A stretch of DNA of 32,535 nucleotides from Allobrachymonas sp. (lineage in GTDB: Bacteria > Pseudomonadota > Gammaproteobacteria > Burkholderiales > Burkholderiaceae_C), in the NCBI GenBank assembly GCA_030529505.1, contig JAUMWT010000025.1, positions 1 through 32,535 of the forward strand. The letters are read 5' to 3'. Both the position numbers and the translations under genes were made by a program. How positions within the stretch are numbered: position 1 is the first letter of the stretch; each line of letters opens with the position of its first letter. The notes beneath the pieces were generated by a model. It searched no databases, was not told the origin of the DNA, and saw only the letters and a program-made list of their open reading frames with translations. This document shows, piece by piece, positions 3,054 to 32,401 of this stretch.

Positions 3054-3282
3054 CAGACGCTTTCCTGCTTCAGGCTTGGAATGAAAGGAAGCTCGGGCCG
3101 GTGAGCGCAGCAAGGAAGGTGCTGCTGCGCCGTTTTCACCTTCAGGCGGCCATCACAACAAACAGCGCGAATGGTGAATGCGCCTGCCCATTCGCTGCTG
3201 CATGCAGCAAACACATCGCAAAGATCAAGAGGGGCACACGCGCCACGTATGCCTGCCCCGCTTCAATCTCGCACTGGCTGCT

Positions 3283-3846
3283 TCAAACCGGCTTTTTGCG
3301 GTCGGCCTGCACTTCGGCGGTGCGCAATTCGGGGGCGAGCGCATGCAGCACGCCGTTGACGTATTTGTGCCCGTCGGTGCCGCCAAAGGATTTGGCCAGC
3401 TCGATGCATTCGTTGAGCACCACGCGCCAAGGCACGTCCAGGCAATGCTTCAGCTCGTACACGCCAATCCACATGCAGGCATGTTCAACGGGCGAAATTT
3501 CCTGCCAGCCACGGTCGAGCTTGGGTTCGATCAAGGCGTCCAGCTCGGCAGCTTGCTCCACGCAGCCGTGAAAGACGGCATCGAAGTGCGCGCTGTCGCC
3601 TTTGTGAAAGCCGGTCAGGTCGCGCGTGAACTGGTCGATGGCTGCGGCATCGTTGCCGCCCACCAGGTGCTGGTACAGGGCCTGCACGATGAATTCGCGC
3701 GCGCGCGCGCGGCCGGTTTTGCCCGGCATTTTGCGCGGCTTGGCGGCTTTGGCCGCGGGCGCAGCCTCGGGCTGCATGGCTTGATACAGCGCATCCTCAG
3801 GCGTAGCGGGGGTGCCGGGGGTGTCGGGTGTGGAAGCGGTGTTCAT
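3283..3846 (-). CDS. nusB: Transcription antitermination factor NusB
   Basis: NusB binds boxA RNA with NusE (S10) in the rRNA antitermination complex. The 187-residue protein has a Pro/Ala-rich N-terminal extension of about 45 residues. The helical NusB core follows: [52 protein letters not shown], and the conserved [29 protein letters not shown] near the C-terminus. Two starts compete. The ATG at 3864 overlaps the ribH stop as ATGA and would add six residues. The ATG at 3846 has an AGGGG about 10 bases upstream and is preferred here. ribH followed by nusB is a classic conserved pair, and with ribB upstream the three probably form one operon. Confidence 0.92.
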
Positions 3847-3860
3847 CTGCAAGCTACCCC

Positions 3861-4334
3861 TCATTGTTGATACATGCTGCGCAGCAGCAGGGCCATTTCA
3901 ACAGCCACGCGCGCGGCGTCCACCGCTTTTTCACTTTGGCGCGCCTGGGCCTGCTTGAGGTTTTCCACCGTGAGGATGGCATTGGCCACGGGCAGCGCAA
4001 AGTCCAGCGCCACGCGCGATACGCCCGCGCCCGATTCATTGGCCACCAGTTCGAAATGGTAGGTTTCGCCGCGGATGATGCAACCGATGGCAATCAGCGC
4101 ATCGTAGGCAGCGCGATCGCCCAGGCCCTGCAAGGCCACGGGAATTTCGAGTGCGCCGGGCACCTGCACCAGCGTCACGTTTTTGGCCTTGACGCCCAGT
4201 TGCATCAGCTCGGCCAGGCAGGCCTCGGTCATGGCGTTGGTGATGTCTTCATTGAAACGCGCCTGCACGATGCCGATGCGCAGTTTCTTGCCATTCAGCT
4301 GGCTGCTGATATCGCCCTTGTTTGCTTTTTTCAT
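3861..4334 (-). CDS. ribH: 6,7-dimethyl-8-ribityllumazine synthase
   Basis: This enzyme condenses 5-amino-6-ribitylaminouracil with 3,4-dihydroxy-2-butanone 4-phosphate to give lumazine, the penultimate riboflavin step. It is a 157-residue protein of normal length. Landmarks are [13 protein letters not shown] (substrate-binding Phe/Asn loop), [33 protein letters not shown] with the catalytic His region, and [22 protein letters not shown]. It lies 85 bases downstream of ribB and touches nusB, consistent with one transcript. The pathway partner RibB, which makes its four-carbon substrate, is encoded immediately upstream. Confidence 0.96.
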
Positions 4335-4419
4335 TTGCCTTTGCTCACTGGTTTGAAAAATAAAAATCCATTGAAAAAGATCGCGGCTGCCACCGACAGG
4401 CCGTTTGCCCGCTCACGGA

Positions 4420-5601
4420 TCAGGCGGCCGAAACGGGCGGCGCTTCGCTAAAGCCCACCACCTCCAGATCGTAGCCCGCCATGCTGGGCATGCGCCGGTT
4501 CGGCCCCAGGATGTGCAGCTTGCGCGCGCCGCACTCGCGCAGGATTTGCGCGCCAATGCCGTAGTTGCGCAAGTCCTGCCCCTTGGCCGGGGCGTGCGTG
4601 ACGAGGGCAGCGCCTTCGAACTGCGCCAGCAGTTGATCGGCCGTTTCGCCGCAATTGAGCAGCACCACCACGCCGCGCTGCTGCTGTTGGATGTGGCGCA
4701 AGCTCGCTTCCAGGCTCCAGCTGTGCGCCTGACGGCCGGTTTCCAGCGCATCGAGCAGCGACAGCGGCTCGTGCACGCGCGTGGGCACCACTTGATCGGC
4801 GCTCCAACTGCCTTTGACCAGGGCCAGGTGCAGGCTTTGGTCCTGCACGTCGCGATAGGCGTGCGCCACGAATTCGCCGTAAGCGGTTTGCAGCGGGCGC
4901 GAGGCCACTTTGCGAATCAGCGATTCGTGGCGGATGCGGTGCTCGATCAAGTCGGCAATGGTGCCGATCTTGAGCCCATGCGTGGCGGCGAAGCGTTGCA
5001 GCTCGGGCAGGCGGGCCATGCTGCCGTCTTCGTTCATGATTTCGCAAATCACCGCAGCCGGCGCGCAGCCTGCCATGCGCGCCAGGTCGCAGCCTGCCTC
5101 GGTGTGGCCCGCGCGCATGAGCACGCCGCCCTCCACCGCCTGAATCGGAAAGACGTGCCCCGGCTGCACGATGTCTTGCGCCGTGCCCTTGATGGCCATT
5201 TCGATGGTGCGCGCGCGGTCGGCGGCCGAGATGCCCGTGGTCACGCCCTGCGCGGCTTCGATCGAAGTGGTAAAGGCCGTGCCGTAGCGCGTGCCGTTGC
5301 GGCTCGTCATGGGTGCCAGGCCGAGCTGCTCGCAACGCTCGCGCGTAAGCGTCAGGCAGACCAGCCCGCGCGCATGCGTCACCATGAAGTTGATCGCCTC
5401 GGGCGTAACGTGCTCGGCCGCCAGCATCAGATCGCCTTCGTTCTCGCGGTCTTCTTCATCCACCAAAATCACCAACTTGCCCGCGCGCAAATCGGCCACG
5501 ATTTCTTCAACCGGCGCGATGCCGGCCGCAGGAGTCTGCCCCGGCGCGGCAGCGGGTTCGGCCTTGGGCGTTGAGCAGGAACAATCAGGCAAGGTGGACA
5601 T
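4420..5601 (-). CDS. ribB: 3,4-dihydroxy-2-butanone-4-phosphate synthase fused to a degenerate GTP cyclohydrolase II-like domain (RibBX type)
   Basis: Residues about 30-230 are a complete DHBP synthase: the acidic loop [11 protein letters not shown] (48-58), the [13 protein letters not shown] region and [14 protein letters not shown] (165-178) are intact. This part turns ribulose 5-phosphate into the four-carbon riboflavin precursor. Residues about 245-393 align in outline with GTP cyclohydrolase II ([11 protein letters not shown], then [26 protein letters not shown]). However, the zinc site is gone. Where RibA has SEC-LTGD and RCDCG, this protein has EPL-SLLD and QAHSW, and the QEGRGIGL loop is replaced by [14 protein letters not shown] cyclohydrolase activity is therefore not expected. 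The same design is known in Proteobacteria as RibBX. The start at 5601 is chosen because upstream codons lack family similarity. Confidence 0.92.
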
Positions 5602-24156: not shown

Positions 24157-24231
24157 GCCGCCGTAGTTCAATGGATAGAACGAGCGCCTCCTAAGCGCTA
24201 GATACAGGTTCGATTCCTGTCGGTGGTGCCA
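24157..24231 (+). tRNA. tRNA-Arg (anticodon CCT)
   Basis: A complete cloverleaf: acceptor GCCGCCG with CGGTGGT, D arm GTTC/GAAC, anticodon stem AGCGC/GCGCT around loop CTCCTAA (anticodon CCT, decoding AGG), T arm ACAGG-TTCGATT-CCTGT, and discriminator G plus an encoded CCA (24229-24231). CATAAT at 24098-24103 may be its -10. The integrase gene begins 129 bases downstream on the same strand, so the 3' half of this tRNA is the probable attachment site. Confidence 0.96.
24187..24231 (+). other. Probable attachment site (attL) in the tRNA 3' half
   Basis: Inferred from the integrase lying next to the tRNA gene. Tyrosine integrases of this arrangement usually recombine in the anticodon-to-3'-end part of the tRNA and leave it intact, as here. 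The matching direct repeat would lie beyond the right edge. Confidence 0.5.
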
Positions 24232-24359
24232 GCGTTGACACTGCCGTCGTTGCAAAGCGCGTCAATCCCAAGCAAAAACAAGGTGCTACGGCAATGCGGC
24301 AATCTTCCGCGTGGCATACTGAAGCAAAAAACGCCCCACTTTTGCCCCAGTTTTGCCCC

Positions 24360-25367
24360 ATGCCGACAGCCAAAAAGTTCCGCGCACAAGTCAAAGTGCG
24401 CCACCCCATCACCAAACAAGATTTGCGTGACAGCGCGACCTTCGCCACCAAGCGCGAGGCTGATGCGTGGAAAGTGCGCCGCAGGCAAGAGCTGCTGGAT
24501 GGCGCAAAGCGAAGCAGCAAGGGGCGGGCAACACTGATGCAGGCTTTTGAGCGTTATCTGGCCGAAGTGTCCCCGTCCCTCAAGGGGCACGCATGGTACG
24601 TGAAGCGCATCCACGCCTTCGTGCGCGACGACCGCCTACCCGTCACCCTGCCGCTGACAGACCTTTCCACGGCTCACCTGAACAACTGGAAGCAAGCCAG
24701 GCTGCAAGAGGTCACAGCGGGAACCGTACTGCGCGACTTGGGGCTACTCGGCAGTGTGCTGGGGTATTGCCGCAAAGACTGGGGTTGGATGGATCACGAC
24801 CCGATGGGAATGCTGCGCAAGCCGCCCACGCCAAAACACCGCGACCGCGTCATCACCTGGCGAGAAACCCGCGTCATGCTGCGCCAGCTTGACTATGCGC
24901 ATGGCAAGCGCCCAGCCAGCTTCAAGCAAATGGCAGCCTATGCCTTCCTGATCGCCCTGCGTACGGGCATGCGAGCGGGGGAGATTCTTGGGGCCGAGTG
25001 GGCCAACTATCACGGCACATGGCTGCGCCTGCCAGACACCAAGAACAGCGCGGCCCGCGACGTGCCCTTGTCGCGCAAGGCCATCAACCTGATCGAGCGC
25101 TTGCGCGGGCTGGACGAAGACCGCCTACTGCCCATTGCCAGCGGCACGATGGATGCGCTGTTTCGCCGGGCCCGAGACACAGCGGGACTGGAGGGCTTCC
25201 GCTTCCACGACACGCGCCACACAGCGGCAACACGCATCGGCGCAACCGTGGGCCAGCCCGGCAAGCTGTCTTTCCCAGAGTTTTGCAAAGTGTTCGGCTG
25301 GCGCGATCCGAAGTACGCTCTGGTCTATGTGAACCCGAGCGCCGCCAGCCTTGCGTCAAAGTTATAG
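24360..25367 (+). CDS. int: Phage site-specific tyrosine recombinase (integrase)
   Basis: A 335-residue integrase. The N-terminal part includes an arm-type-binding-like segment (AKKFRAQVKVRHPITKQDLRDSATFATKREADAW) and a SAM-like core-binding domain (LMQAFERYLAEVSPSLKG). The catalytic domain shows Arg in RTGMRAGEILG, a beta-hairpin Lys in LPDTKNSAARDVPLS, HxxR in HDTRHTAAT, Trp in FGWRDP and the nucleophile Tyr in YALVYVNP. All catalytic positions are present, so the enzyme is likely active. The ATG at 24360 is chosen because the conserved region begins there. It is directly preceded by two TTTTGCCCC copies. The ATG at 24294 would add 22 residues without similarity. It reads away from the tRNA, and a small gene follows after 10 bases. 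Confidence 0.92.
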   Translation: MPTAKKFRAQVKVRHPITKQDLRDSATFATKREADAWKVRRRQELLDGAKRSSKGRATLMQAFERYLAEVSPSLKGHAWYVKRIHAFVRDDRLPVTLPLTDLSTAHLNNWKQARLQEVTAGTVLRDLGLLGSVLGYCRKDWGWMDHDPMGMLRKPPTPKHRDRVITWRETRVMLRQLDYAHGKRPASFKQMAAYAFLIALRTGMRAGEILGAEWANYHGTWLRLPDTKNSAARDVPLSRKAINLIERLRGLDEDRLLPIASGTMDALFRRARDTAGLEGFRFHDTRHTAATRIGATVGQPGKLSFPEFCKVFGWRDPKYALVYVNPSAASLASKL

Positions 25368-28113: not shown

Positions 28114-28344
28114 TCAGATTTCGCCCTCGGCCTCGATTGGCAGGTCGGGCGCCTCATTCACGATCACGCCGCCCTGCACAAATACCTTCTTGCCTTTTTC
28201 GATCCCCGTCGGGTTGGCCACCTGCACAAAGCCGCCGCCAATCAGCTCAACCGTTGCTGTCTTGCCGGCCACATCCACCGTGCCGATCAACATCGGCTGC
28301 TCGGGCATCAGCTCCCGCAGCCGCCGGTAAATGCTTGTGCTCAT
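28114..28344 (-). CDS. Small beta-rich phage protein, possibly baseplate-associated
   Basis: A 76-residue protein that starts four bases before the hub gene ends (ATGA overlap). After a short helix (YRRLRELMPEQP) the rest is strand-like: MLIGTVDVAGKTATVELIGGGFVQVAN, then GKKVFVQGGVIV. This is OB-like in character and recalls small spike or hub-capping proteins encoded beside hub genes, but the link is positional inference. The longer frame upstream lies inside the hub gene and is not used. Confidence 0.7.
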   Translation of the reverse strand: MSTSIYRRLRELMPEQPMLIGTVDVAGKTATVELIGGGFVQVANPTGIEKGKKVFVQGGVIVNEAPDLPIEAEGEI

Positions 28345-30302
28345 GCCAGGTGCCTTTCCAGCGTGACGGTCTGGTTCACCACCGGCCCGCCACCCGCCTT
28401 GATGCTCACGCTGCGCACCATGCCGCGCCACTCACCATCGGTATCCACCACGCCAACCAGCCCGCCCATCGGCAGCACGCCGGGGTAGCCCGCCGTGGTG
28501 TTCACGGGCAGCGTCATGGTCACGTTGGCGCGCCAGCCGCAGCGCCCCAGCACGGCCTTGGCCCGCTCCGTGTGGGCCGGGGCATCGGTCAACAAGGCAT
28601 CTGTCACCATCGGCGCCAGCACATCGCCCGGCGTGCCGAAGCGCCGCGTGGGCTTGATGGAACCGGCCACGGTGCCAGCCGTATAGACCTTGTTGTAGGC
28701 AGGCTCGCGCACCTCCTCGAAGCTATCCGTTTCGGCGTAGCCGATGGGCAGCACCACATCCGGCGTGGCCCCACCCCACTCCCACGGCATGCTGCTGTAG
28801 CGCGGCATGTAGATCAGCGTCTGCGCCGTCGGGTGGCTCTGCACCACCGCGCCCACGGCATCGGCCACGCGCAGCACGGCGCTCAAAGGTGTGCCCTGGT
28901 GGCTCCACGCCCCGGCGGGGATTTGCCAATCAGGGATGCGCCAATCCACCGTCGTGCCGGTCAACTCCAGCGCCTCGCGCACAAGCTGCTGCGCCATGCG
29001 TTGCTCTGTGTTGGCAAACGTGGCCACGGGCAGTGCATCCAGCGCGCTGGTGGCGCTCGCGCCCGTGATGCTCACGGAATGCTCGGGCCATGCCCGGCTG
29101 CGCCCACGGCTTTGCACGGCAAATATCCACGCCAGGCCGTCGATCTCGATGCGCACCATTTGGGGTTGTCCGTCTTTCGGTGCCAACTGCTCCATCAGCC
29201 ACACGGAGCCGGTTGCGCTCAACTGCCACGCATACCCGCCCTCGTCCGTGCTGATGGTCACTTCTTGGAAGACAACCGGCTCGCCGCCTGGCCACAGCGT
29301 GGCCGACATCTCGTGAATGTGCATGTAAACGTCCAGTGCAGGAACAATGAGTGTTTGCTTTTCACCGGGGCGACGGCGCCGCCCGCAAAAGCCGAAGATC
29401 AGCGAGCCGGTGCCGTGCGCTGGGCGGCAGAACACCAGATCAACCGCCCCGCCCCTGGGGATGAGGCGTCCATCGTCGGGCTGCGCGCCGTCGCCAAACT
29501 GCGGGCCAATGCCCGGCGGCGGGGGCATGCCCGGCTGCCAGCGTACGCCGATCTGCTGGCTGACGATGCGCGCATTGCCAAGCAGTTGCTGCACCGCCGC
29601 AGCCACCCGCGCCCCGTGCTGCCAGCGCGCAGCTTGGCTTGCGCCCAGGCGTTGGCCGAACTGCCACGCGAAAAACGCCGCATCCCCGGCTGGCCGCCCT
29701 TGCTGCCAGCGGGCTGCTGTGCCGCTGCGGGCACGGATGGCCCCCTGCCAAACCACGGCAGCCAGTGCAGACACCTTGCGGCCGGGCTGCCAGCGCACTT
29801 GTGACCGAACCCCCAGGGGTACGGTAATAAACCAGTTTGTGCTAAGGGCAGCAGCAAGCCCTTTGGCCTGCTGCTTGCGCACACAGGCCCCGCGATTCAC
29901 TTTGGATGTACCCCCCCATGTGAAGTGAATAGGGGCAGATGCCCGCTGGGCCGCCTGAAACCTTGCTGCCGCCTTGCTCATCACGGGGCGGTACGTATTG
30001 CTGTCCCACCGCATCCGCAAATCCACACCCACCTCGCCGCAGTCGATCACACCGCTGACCGGCGTGGCCATAGCCAAGTGCAGCTCGGCAGTGATGGCCC
30101 CTGTGTCCACATCCAGATAGACGTAGGCCGGGTCAGGCGTGCCTTGCTGCGCCGTGCCGCCCGCGCCAAACACCAGGTTGGGGCTGTTGCGCTGCTCATG
30201 CGCAAAGACCAGCTTGGTGCCCTTGGCCGCGTCTGCGCCAAAGACGATCTCGCCCCCGGCATCACCACCTTTGGGCTTGGGGCCAAAGACCAGATCGCTC
30301 AT
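28341..30302 (-). CDS. Phage baseplate/tail-hub-like protein with 28-residue Trp repeats
   Basis: A 653-residue structural protein. Residues 1-53 carry LVFG-type strands at 12-residue spacing (Phe 21, 33, 45). Residues 114-258 consist of five full 28-residue units starting RFQ, RKQ, RWQ, RWQ, RWQ, plus a final RWQPG; aromatics recur every 14 residues (115, 129, 157, 171, 185, 199, 213, 227, 255). A Pro-rich linker follows, then two more LVF-type 12-mers (288-311). The C-terminal half (about 320-653) resembles tail hub or late-control proteins: QMVRIEIDGLAWIF, TEQRMAQQLVREALELTG, TPLSAVLRVADAVGAVVQSHP, and final barrel strands GLVGVVDTDGEWRGMVRSVSI. The hub assignment is by pattern and position between tail genes, not by search. 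Confidence 0.8.
   Translation of the reverse strand: MSDLVFGPKPKGGDAGGEIVFGADAAKGTKLVFAHEQRNSPNLVFGAGGTAQQGTPDPAYVYLDVDTGAITAELHLAMATPVSGVIDCGEVGVDLRMRWDSNTYRPVMSKAAARFQAAQRASAPIHFTWGGTSKVNRGACVRKQQAKGLAAALSTNWFITVPLGVRSQVRWQPGRKVSALAAVVWQGAIRARSGTAARWQQGRPAGDAAFFAWQFGQRLGASQAARWQHGARVAAAVQQLLGNARIVSQQIGVRWQPGMPPPPGIGPQFGDGAQPDDGRLIPRGGAVDLVFCRPAHGTGSLIFGFCGRRRRPGEKQTLIVPALDVYMHIHEMSATLWPGGEPVVFQEVTISTDEGGYAWQLSATGSVWLMEQLAPKDGQPQMVRIEIDGLAWIFAVQSRGRSRAWPEHSVSITGASATSALDALPVATFANTEQRMAQQLVREALELTGTTVDWRIPDWQIPAGAWSHQGTPLSAVLRVADAVGAVVQSHPTAQTLIYMPRYSSMPWEWGGATPDVVLPIGYAETDSFEEVREPAYNKVYTAGTVAGSIKPTRRFGTPGDVLAPMVTDALLTDAPAHTERAKAVLGRCGWRANVTMTLPVNTTAGYPGVLPMGGLVGVVDTDGEWRGMVRSVSIKAGGGPVVNQTVTLERHLA
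29544..29963 (-). repeat. Protein-coding repeat: five 84-base (28-codon) units in the hub-like gene
   Basis: Five consecutive 28-codon units encoding residues 114-253, all in the same phase with no insertion or deletion. A sixth partial unit (RWQPG) continues to 29529. Each begins R-(F/K/W)-Q and has a second aromatic 14 residues after the first in units 1-4. DNA identity between units is low, so this is an old, protein-level repeat. Confidence 0.8.
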
Positions 30303-30315
30303 GCTTGCCGGGGCC

Positions 30316-30747
30316 TCAGGTCAGGCGCAGGCTCACGACGGGCAGCTTGCCGCCCTTGTAGAGCAGCACGCCGTCGGCCGGGCCGGTGGCCGCGCCCTCA
30401 ATCTGCAAGCCGCCTTTGTCCGAGCCTTTGGGCACCACGGCACAGTCAAAGGCCCAGTGGCCTGCAGCCGTCACCATGCGCGCCCACAGGGCCTCGCCGG
30501 ATGCCGCCACCAGTTGGCGCTCTGCACCGCTGCTGGCCAGCAGCAATGCGCCGCTCTCGACCTTGCCGCAGGGCTTGTCCAGCTCAATACTGGCCAGCTC
30601 CGTGCCGCCATCCACGCCCGCGCCGGGCCACTCGCCGCCCATGATGCGGATGCGCGCATGGCCGTCGCCCGCATCCAGCCAGGCCAGCATGCCTTGCAGG
30701 CGCGCCGCGCGCAGCTCGGCAGATACGGCCAAGGCTGGGGCGCTCAT
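30316..30747 (-). CDS. Hypothetical phage structural protein
   Basis: A 143-residue protein, not recognised. It appears beta-rich: MLAWLDAGDGHARIRIMGG, TELASIELDKPCGKV, and ALWARMVTAAGHWAFDCAV followed by ADGVLLYKGGKLPVVSLRL. It sits between a probable Ig/CnaB-like protein and the hub-like protein, with a 4-base ATGA overlap to the former and 13 bases to the latter. A role in the tail or tail tip is inferred from position only. Confidence 0.75.
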   Translation of the reverse strand: MSAPALAVSAELRAARLQGMLAWLDAGDGHARIRIMGGEWPGAGVDGGTELASIELDKPCGKVESGALLLASSGAERQLVAASGEALWARMVTAAGHWAFDCAVVPKGSDKGGLQIEGAATGPADGVLLYKGGKLPVVSLRLT

Positions 30748-31130
30748 TCGGGCATCCTTTCAGGGCGCAGGCTGTCGGCGGCCACGGCCACGAACTTGCC
30801 GGTGTGGTCGTAGCTCAGCACCGTGTACACGCGCTCCATGTCGATGTAATCGAAGCGGTACACGCCCGTTTTGGGGTCGCTCCACGTCTCGGCGACGGGG
30901 TTGCCCGTGGCCTGGTCGTGCAGGCGCACCTTGCGCCACACGGGCACCTCTCCACCCTCTGGCGCACCCTTGGGCAGCTCTTTGACGGTGCCTGCAACGT
31001 AGCCCAGCCCACCCCGGTACACGTCGCGCGTGAGCAGTTGCGCGGGCAGCGCCTGCTTTTGCAGCAGCCCGCCGCCTTTGAGCTGGATGGACGCCAACGA
31101 CAGCCCGAGCAGAATCGGTTGCGCGCTCAT
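30744..31130 (-). CDS. Phage protein with carboxypeptidase-regulatory-like (transthyretin-type) fold
   Basis: A 128-residue protein. The order GYVAGTVKELP, PVWRKVRLHDQATGNPVAETWSDPKTGVYRFDYIDMERVYTVLSYDHTGKFVAVAADSL (in pieces) follows the pattern of carboxypeptidase-regulatory or CnaB-like beta-sandwiches: a G-x-V strand, an xVRL strand with a G-x-x-V turn, S-D-x-x-G-x-Y-x-F, and a Y-T-V strand. Such domains decorate phage tails. The ATG at 31130 is used; a TTG three codons upstream overlaps the previous gene's stop. The previous gene ends two bases before it. Confidence 0.75.
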   Translation of the reverse strand: MSAQPILLGLSLASIQLKGGGLLQKQALPAQLLTRDVYRGGLGYVAGTVKELPKGAPEGGEVPVWRKVRLHDQATGNPVAETWSDPKTGVYRFDYIDMERVYTVLSYDHTGKFVAVAADSLRPERMPE

Positions 31131-31132
31131 GA

Positions 31133-32401
31133 TTACCAAGGCCCTGTGATGTCCAGCGCAACAGAACCAGCGCCAGATCCGTAAAAGGTGTTGACCAGCA
31201 AGACCTTGCGCCCCGGAAGCCCCGCCACTCCATCGAGCACCGTCAGGTGCCCAAGGTTCTGCTGATGCAAGACGTGATAGAGGCCGCGCAAACGCCCTCG
31301 CAACGTGCCACCCTCCTCCTGTAGCCAGGCTGGATGCAACAGGAGCCCGTTTCCGGCCCCGTTGGGAAAAGGAACGCTCGACTGAAGGCCGCTTGCCTTT
31401 GTCGTCCCTTGAAAGACATCCAGGGATAAGGGCCGAAACGCCTCCGGCAGACCCTCGCCCAGATACCTTCTCAGCAGCAACCTTCCCTCAGCCTTGTCCA
31501 AGAGCCCAAGGTTTCCCGGACGGCCGACTGAGAAATCATCTCGAACGCGTCGGTCATTTACGTGTGCGCACAGCAATGATGCAAAAGCATCGGCAGATTG
31601 GAGGCTGTCGATGTCGCCCCAGCCCCAAGGTAGCAGTCCGTTTACATTAAGCAATGGCTGCAAGAGTGGGTAGCAGGTTTTATCGTCTCCCGCAATGACC
31701 CAGTGCCTCGCCCCGGCAGAAGGAGCGTTGCGCTCCGAGTAGTTGTTTGAATAGGTCGCGTAATACCACTTGAACCATCCCGAGCACATATCGTTGCCAC
31801 TACCCTTGGGCACCTCGTTCTTGGTCGGATCGGACGGATCAAAAGGCGCACGTGCACCGACGAAGGTGTCCAGGTCGCTCATGTTTTGTGCCATCGTCAC
31901 GCGACCGAACTTGGCCCATGTGGTGGTGTAACCAGCCGGGCATGAATCATCCACGCGCAACACGTTTTGGGTGGATTGCGGATCGGCGCTGCGCAGCACC
32001 AGTTTCTGGCCGCCGTCATCAAACAGGCTTTCCCAGCCCAGCGGCGCGGTGCGCATTTGCAAGGTTTGCCCCGGCGCGGCCTGGGCTTCGGGCAGCTCGG
32101 CCTCCAGCTCAATGGTGAGCGTATTGGCTCCCTCAACCGACACGACGCGATGCGCGCCGTTGTAGCCTGCGGGCACGGCGTTTTCGATCTGCACCACCTG
32201 GTGCTCAAGGTAGCCGTGGCCTGCGCATTGGATGGTGGCCTTGGTGCCTTGGCAAGTGATCGACTGAATGGGCCGCACGTTAAAGCCGGTCACACAGCAG
32301 GCGCGCAACATGGCCGTGAGGGCGCCCCAGTTGTTGTCAATAACAGGTGCGCCTTGCATGCCGCTGTGCATCCATCTGACGCTTGCATTCATAACTGCCA
32401 T
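31133..32401 (-). CDS. Phage structural protein, large, unknown role
   Basis: A 422-residue protein with AAGGAGAG 9 bases upstream of its ATG. The N-terminus (VRWMHSGMQGAPVIDNNWGALTAMLRACCVTGFN) and the segment APLGWESLFDDGGQKLVLRS...NVLRVDDSC are of a type I associate with conserved prophage virion proteins of Burkholderiales and relatives, but no function is known to me. Residues about 45-115 read as a beta-rich domain (TKATIQCAGHGYLEHQVVQIENAVPAGYNGAHRVVSV). The C-terminal half contains several Trp/Gly-rich stretches and ends VLLVNTFYGSGAGSVALDITGPW. A tail or adhesion role is inferred from operon position. Confidence 0.8.
   Translation of the reverse strand: MAVMNASVRWMHSGMQGAPVIDNNWGALTAMLRACCVTGFNVRPIQSITCQGTKATIQCAGHGYLEHQVVQIENAVPAGYNGAHRVVSVEGANTLTIELEAELPEAQAAPGQTLQMRTAPLGWESLFDDGGQKLVLRSADPQSTQNVLRVDDSCPAGYTTTWAKFGRVTMAQNMSDLDTFVGARAPFDPSDPTKNEVPKGSGNDMCSGWFKWYYATYSNNYSERNAPSAGARHWVIAGDDKTCYPLLQPLLNVNGLLPWGWGDIDSLQSADAFASLLCAHVNDRRVRDDFSVGRPGNLGLLDKAEGRLLLRRYLGEGLPEAFRPLSLDVFQGTTKASGLQSSVPFPNGAGNGLLLHPAWLQEEGGTLRGRLRGLYHVLHQQNLGHLTVLDGVAGLPGRKVLLVNTFYGSGAGSVALDITGPW

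Follow-up and report, generated by a model that had tools for sequence, protein, structure and literature searches.

An array of eleven 14-residue, tryptophan-marked units in a hub-like phage tail protein

The window, that is, the whole stretch of 32,535 nucleotides analysed here, is an entire contig (C80) of a 2.39 Mb assembly of Allobrachymonas sp. A tRNA-Arg gene (CCT, 24157-24231) adjoins an integrase gene (24294-25367), and the pair (24157-25367) is the likely attachment site of a prophage whose tail and lysis genes run on the minus strand as far as the contig end, where the prophage is interrupted. One of these genes (28341..30302, minus strand) encodes a hub-like tail protein of 653 residues, of which residues 30-652 match PHROG 6079 (E 7e-107) on positions 5-604 of a 605-position profile. 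Upstream of it on the same strand lie g3 (31133..32401; 422 residues; PHROG 9998, also 9600, tail assembly protein), a gene for 131 residues (30744..31139) of which residues 67-126 match PHROG 27013, and g1 (30316..30747; 143 residues; PHROG 3758, virion structural protein). Downstream, again on the minus strand, lies a small partner gene (28114..28344; PHROG 5076) whose start was inferred from alignment A6.

The neighbourhood is that of a phage tail. The gene order, a composite of contig C59 of the same genome and of Acidovorax phage ACF1, runs from the tape measure through a small protein (PHROG 4408), a large protein (PHROG 6128) and g3 (PHROG 9998) to g2 (LamG, with a PHROG 27013 end), g1 (PHROG 3758), the PHROG 6079 protein, its 73-residue partner (PHROG 5076) and the lysis genes. 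Contig C59 carries a second copy of the protein, 55% identical, inside another phage tail module. A LamG lectin domain (PF13385) is found in g2, two places upstream of the array protein, in three of the four relatives scanned, and of three copies of g2 scanned for PHROG 27013, those of L032 and L033 match it at their C-terminal end and that of L071 does not. In the window, the g2 position holds the 131-residue gene (30744-31139), with its PHROG 27013 match alone, instead of a LamG lectin gene; a gene for 130 residues, comparable by eye, stands at the g2 place of C59 (L251, 16176-16568). Of 299 genomes from the host's family, 39 have relatives of the array protein, a count that includes the window's own genome and two marginal fragments. 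Curvibacter phage PCA1 (record OP588919) also carries the protein. A PDB search with the N-terminal part of the large protein encoded upstream returned one match, at chance level, and one with g3 of C59 returned none, while single-protein scans of viral contigs and genome contigs were unproductive.

The N-terminal half of the protein contains a repeat of strict phase. Six R-x-Q starts (RFQ 114, RKQ 142, RWQ 170, RWQ 198, RWQ 226 and RWQ 254) follow one another at steps of exactly 28 residues between residues 114 and 258 (29529-29963), as the initial annotation had described with correct coordinates, and a second aromatic residue stands 14 residues further on in four of the five units (W129, W157, W185 and W213), the exception being L241. 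In a chance test on residues 99-262, with 5000 shuffles and lags 3-60, lag 28 gives six W-W pairs against a shuffle mean of 0.36, a value reached by no shuffle at any lag, and 33 identities against a mean of 11.7 (P at any lag 0.0004), so that the claimed 28-residue period is significant. Lag 14 gives five W-W pairs against a mean of 0.41, and no shuffle reached this value. Excess W-W pairs occur at lags 14, 28, 42 and 56, the values at the first three being unreached by the 5000 shuffles at any lag. Whole-residue identity is significant at lags 28 and 56; it is not significant at lag 42 once all lags are allowed for, nor at lag 14, where the 653-residue protein has 19 identities against a mean of 12.9 (P at that lag 0.05). 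The DNA of the units has diverged, as had also been noted: the best 84-nt self-match is 54% identical, and TRF finds no tandem array in the repeat DNA.

From the window protein alone, 28 residues is the clear period, whereas the 14-residue unit emerges from the tryptophan spacing together with the relatives; a basic unit of 28 residues was rejected on these grounds, though identity in the window protein peaks at that lag. Eleven units can thus be delimited over residues 115-268 (29499..29960, minus strand), marked by F115, W129, K143, W157, W171, W185, W199, W213, W227, L241 and W255, the last unit running into PPPG. Units of nearly regular length (14 residues) occur in relatives L042, L012 and L018, and L210, from Acidovorax sp. 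MR-S7, is regular as well. Among the 38 relatives with exactly 158 residues from R105 to G264, eleven columns (+10, +24 ... +150) are each more than 50% aromatic; in the 41 with 159 residues this holds for only 8 of the 11 positions, the others often being His. The unit consensus of the 38 is W Q E/D A x P/R L R x A V x S R. At position 3 odd units prefer Ala/Gly (P 2e-9); at position 5 they prefer Pro (P 3e-4) and even units Arg (P 1e-8), these being sign tests over 38 sequences that are not independent. Arg at position 5 is commoner in even units in 35 of the 38 relatives and in odd units in two, and Ala/Gly at position 3 is commoner in odd units in 30 and in even units in none. This difference between odd and even units produces the 28-residue period. 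A PWG/PWQ variant of the unit, at steps of 14-15 residues, is seen in L164, L171, L177 and L008.

Two pairs of LVF motifs flank the array. The first, LVF...LVFG at residues 31-46 (30165..30212, minus strand), has L31, F33, F45 and G46 nearly invariant (at least 90%) in the 111 rows of alignment A5, and in the second, at residues 289-304 (29391..29438, minus strand), L289, F291 and L301 are nearly invariant and F303 is invariant in the same rows. The spacing F291-F303 equals the spacing F33-F45, 12 residues. At the N-terminus itself (residues 1-46) the motif [LI]VF[GA] stands four times, at residues 4, 19, 31 and 43. The DNA there (30163-30245) gives the top-scoring TRF row of the window, with a 36-bp period and 2.3 copies.

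The length of the array was followed through related loci, taken as the best 80 of 110, the best 80 of 169 and 41 more; 250 loci gave 246 matches, 211 distinct proteins and 171 relatives at 90% identity, all read from frames of 500 codons or more with a closed 3′ end. Anchored relatives, selected by R and G at the two anchor positions, number 143 of the 171, and A5 comprises 110 of 112 selected relatives (without L193 and L249) plus the window protein. The measuring stretch from anchor R105 to anchor G264 (29511-29990, minus strand) has 158-163 residues in 142 of the 143. The exception, L249 from Marinobacter (3251-5059), lacks Trp in this stretch, which is 142 residues long. Of the 28 relatives that do not have both anchors, whose lengths rest on alignment columns, 20 measure 158-164 residues and the eight outliers 29, 55, 126, 126, 128, 149, 172 and 209, the value of 55 belonging to L163, which is interrupted by a contig end. 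Over the 143 anchored relatives the coefficient of variation of length is 1.3% for the array, 14.9% for the linker, 4.8% for the C-terminal part and 26.7% for the part before R105, the last figure being inflated in part by the mechanical choice of start codons. Variation in unit number between relatives, a question raised by the initial annotation, is absent from the main group. In seven distant relatives the chains of aromatic residues, at steps of 13-15 residues, have 9, 6, 9, 10, 10, 5 and 2 members, so that eleven units are not universal. Judged by these measurements, the unit number is fixed in the main group and not in all relatives.

Within this near-constant length, the sequence of the array changes fast. 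Of 1186 pairs, 1178 have lower identity in the array than in the C-terminal part (median difference 0.41), and the median dN/dS is 0.28 for the array against 0.12 for the C-terminal half, with the array higher in 352 of 361 usable pairs, under a fast alignment setting and with synonymous sites partly saturated. Since the median dS of the array is also higher in these pairs (0.84 against 0.49), recombination may contribute to the divergence besides fast substitution. Positive selection across the array as a whole was not supported, dN/dS exceeding 1 in only 3 of the 361 pairs. Between the copies on C80 and C59, identity is 85% over residues 1-105, 25% over the array, which aligns without gaps, and 59% over the C-terminal part. 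In L005 and L148, C-terminal parts that are 92% identical accompany arrays that are 31% identical with two gapped columns, which on this alignment is a case of extreme array divergence or of replacement. A low-complexity or frame artefact without structure, suggested by the Ala/Arg-rich composition, is extremely improbable, given that the phase is retained in relatives whose arrays are 18-29% identical to that of the window (A7) and that per-site synonymous change exceeds amino-acid change.

The window array alone matches PHROG 6079 at E 8.9e-8, all 22 arrays scanned match it at E up to 1 (best 1.5e-23), and all 26 members of alignment A1 match it as well; the window protein matches over its full length, with no difference found, and the entry is labelled just ‘tail protein’. 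The earlier statement that no named phage domain has this pattern is right insofar as no curated domain names the repeat, but the whole protein, array included, already belongs to PHROG 6079. Pfam has no match for the window protein and no name for the repeat, and among the 26 members it yields one weak Laminin_I match (E 0.0049); NCBIfam matches none of the 26 at E 0.01, and a PDB search with the array finds nothing at E up to 10. With the array of L042, the most regular one, tblastn retrieves two phage records and one plasmid record at E up to 0.01; all three match the whole protein too, so that the array was not seen there in another protein. None of the papers listed by a literature search, most subscription journals being outside its coverage, was recognised as describing such repeats.

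The C-terminal half (residues 318-653; 28344..29351, minus strand) weakly resembles the Mu gp44 family. When the last 338 residues of 90 relatives are compared by hhalign with 11 Mu gp44-type hubs, the match is collinear over 242-251 columns; one direction gives E 0.0012 (probability 19%) and the other 0.0004 (34%), each a single comparison, against E 0.49 for a reversed control. The Mu gp44 (gpP) baseplate hub of known structure (PDB 1wru and 9ki1) is matched weakly as 1wru, at E 0.13 by phmmer and 0.038 by the A1 profile, and is not found as 1wru by the A5 profile; the baseplate hub profile PHROG 177 matches one of the 26 A1 members. The C-terminal half is likely hub-like, with a weak resemblance. 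The Mu hub is trimeric and its spike gp45 has an OB-fold domain, according to PMC11915804. As gp45 comes after gp44 in Mu, so the PHROG 6079 protein is trailed by its partner gene: an open reading frame of 60-130 residues starts at the end of the protein in 167 of 171 relatives by mechanical search, and the 45 that were printed look alike. The two systems differ in that Mu gp44, with 379 residues, lacks an N-terminal array; the partner here has about 73 residues, and Pfam finds no OB fold in 22 aligned copies of it. In PMC11445458, the siphophage JBD30 has a tail tip with a hub (gp53) and a receptor-binding protein (gp54), a combination of hub and adhesion proteins that would also apply here; the PDB searches gave no match labelled JBD30 gp53 or gp54.

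Given these data, the array is best explained as a fixed-size structural domain, probably of beta structure, in a hub-like tail-tip protein, a reading to which a probability of about 0.5 is assigned. It draws its main support from the 14-residue units, the odd/even asymmetry, the near-constant length despite fast change, the LVF pairs, the weakly hub-like C-terminal half, the tail-gene neighbourhood, recent copies between units that leave the length unchanged, and a divergence that goes more with the protein's own N-terminus and g1 than with g2. The array itself is real and family-wide; the fold and function set out below are proposed. Each unit would form one beta strand (LRxAVxSRWQ) and a tight turn (DAxP); successive strands would run antiparallel, placing two types of turn on opposite edges of the sheet, with the Trp side chains stacked. 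The two flanking LVF hairpins might meet and close the sheet or ring, a guess from their spacing. With such closure no unit could be gained or lost without breaking the sheet or ring, while most other residues would be free to drift. The domain would carry or position g1 and the adhesion proteins around the hub, and would not itself be the main receptor-choosing part.

The regular repeat structure that had been proposed to precede the hub-like domain is supported, and of the folds considered, stacked beta hairpins are favoured by sequence and not settled. Pooled over 38 of the 143 relatives, hydrophobicity peaks at period 2.0 (power 16.6, with 4.7 at the helical period), and the peak stays there with Trp masked. 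In single sequences, taken from 134 of the 171 relatives, beta scores above helix in just 78, period 2 being dominant in 47 and the helical period in 20. An alpha-helical array, in which 14 residues would be two heptads or short helices would pack as 28-residue hairpins, is a doubtful alternative. The composition, rich in Ala, Arg, Gln and Leu, suits a helix; the least substituted unit positions (0, 3 and 7, over 25 pairs) would likewise fall on one face of a helix, and the proteins matched over the array by the full A5 profile in the PDB are helical, at a non-significant E of at least 0.8. Against it stand, besides the pooled alternation, the Pro that 30% of units have at position 5 and the Gly that 25% have at position 3, which disfavour one long helix, as well as a Pro immediately preceding Trp in L164 and L171 and the units of L048, which look like beta strands by eye.

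Fast change is what would be expected of a host-contact surface, a face rich in Trp, Arg and Gln that binds surface sugars and diversifies under host selection, and the array is indeed rich in Arg (11.7%) and poor in Lys (0.7%). This role is unlikely for the array, since the few pairs with dN/dS above 1 and the possible share of recombination in the divergence speak against it, as does the behaviour of the neighbouring genes. Co-divergence was assessed over 89 loci, 68 of which gave 371 pairs that are not independent, g2 and g3 being taken by position and only at 250 residues or more. The partial values for array identity, corrected for C-terminal identity, are 0.79 with the protein's own N-terminus, 0.62 with g1, 0.35 with g2 and 0.34 with g3, and g1 exceeds g2 in every subsample (70% of loci; up to 300 run). 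C-terminal identity reaches at least 0.90 in 80 pairs; in 63 of them g2 identity is below 0.5, and in 42 of these 63 the arrays remain at least 0.8 identical. Swapping of the array together with g2 was not supported on this count, and a g2 that is swapped while the array mostly is not argues, by inference, for a structural role of the array. With LamG lectin domains residing in g2 in three of the four copies scanned, g2 is a likelier contact part than the cell-wall-contacting arm that the initial annotation had suggested for the array.

In a triple beta-spiral, Pro or Gly occupies the turns and hydrophobic residues alternate. A trimeric fibrous shaft on this plan, three chains winding into a stalk of 14-residue units that projects from the hub, would account for the unit length, for Pro and Gly near the turn and for the alternating hydrophobics, and distant relatives may differ in unit number as such a shaft allows; it is nevertheless quite improbable. 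The adenovirus fibre shaft, as described in PMC7248032, is built on a hydrophobic 15-residue repeat whose number varies between types, whereas the present unit has 14 residues and a near-constant number in the anchored relatives, a constancy that led to the rejection of a variable-length shaft within the main group and disfavours the spike shaft or stalk of the initial annotation. Moreover, odd and even units differ, a difference for which a one-unit spiral has no need, and the array sits between two conserved parts instead of at an end.

The fixed-size domain suggests a tail building block of set dimensions rather than a stretchable fibre, and it gives a testable anatomy to a family labelled only as a tail protein. 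It also separates fast sequence change from change of length or of adhesion genes in tail proteins, and a domain combining hypervariable sequence with a locked length would, if confirmed, be a clean system for asking what sets repeat number. A bolder and tentative extension is a new fold, in which eleven interchangeable Trp-marked strands would make a closed ring or sheet, sealed by the two LVF hairpins, as a length-locked collar round the hub. The sequence of such a collar would be nearly free and its size would not, and the copying of units would survive only if their count were kept. Recent unit-to-unit copies at lag 28/29 are found in L012 (90% identical over 84 nt) and, as nearly exact 29-residue copies, in L008 (93% over 84 nt), and an exact 42-nt copy lies within the array of L050, the total length being normal in all three.
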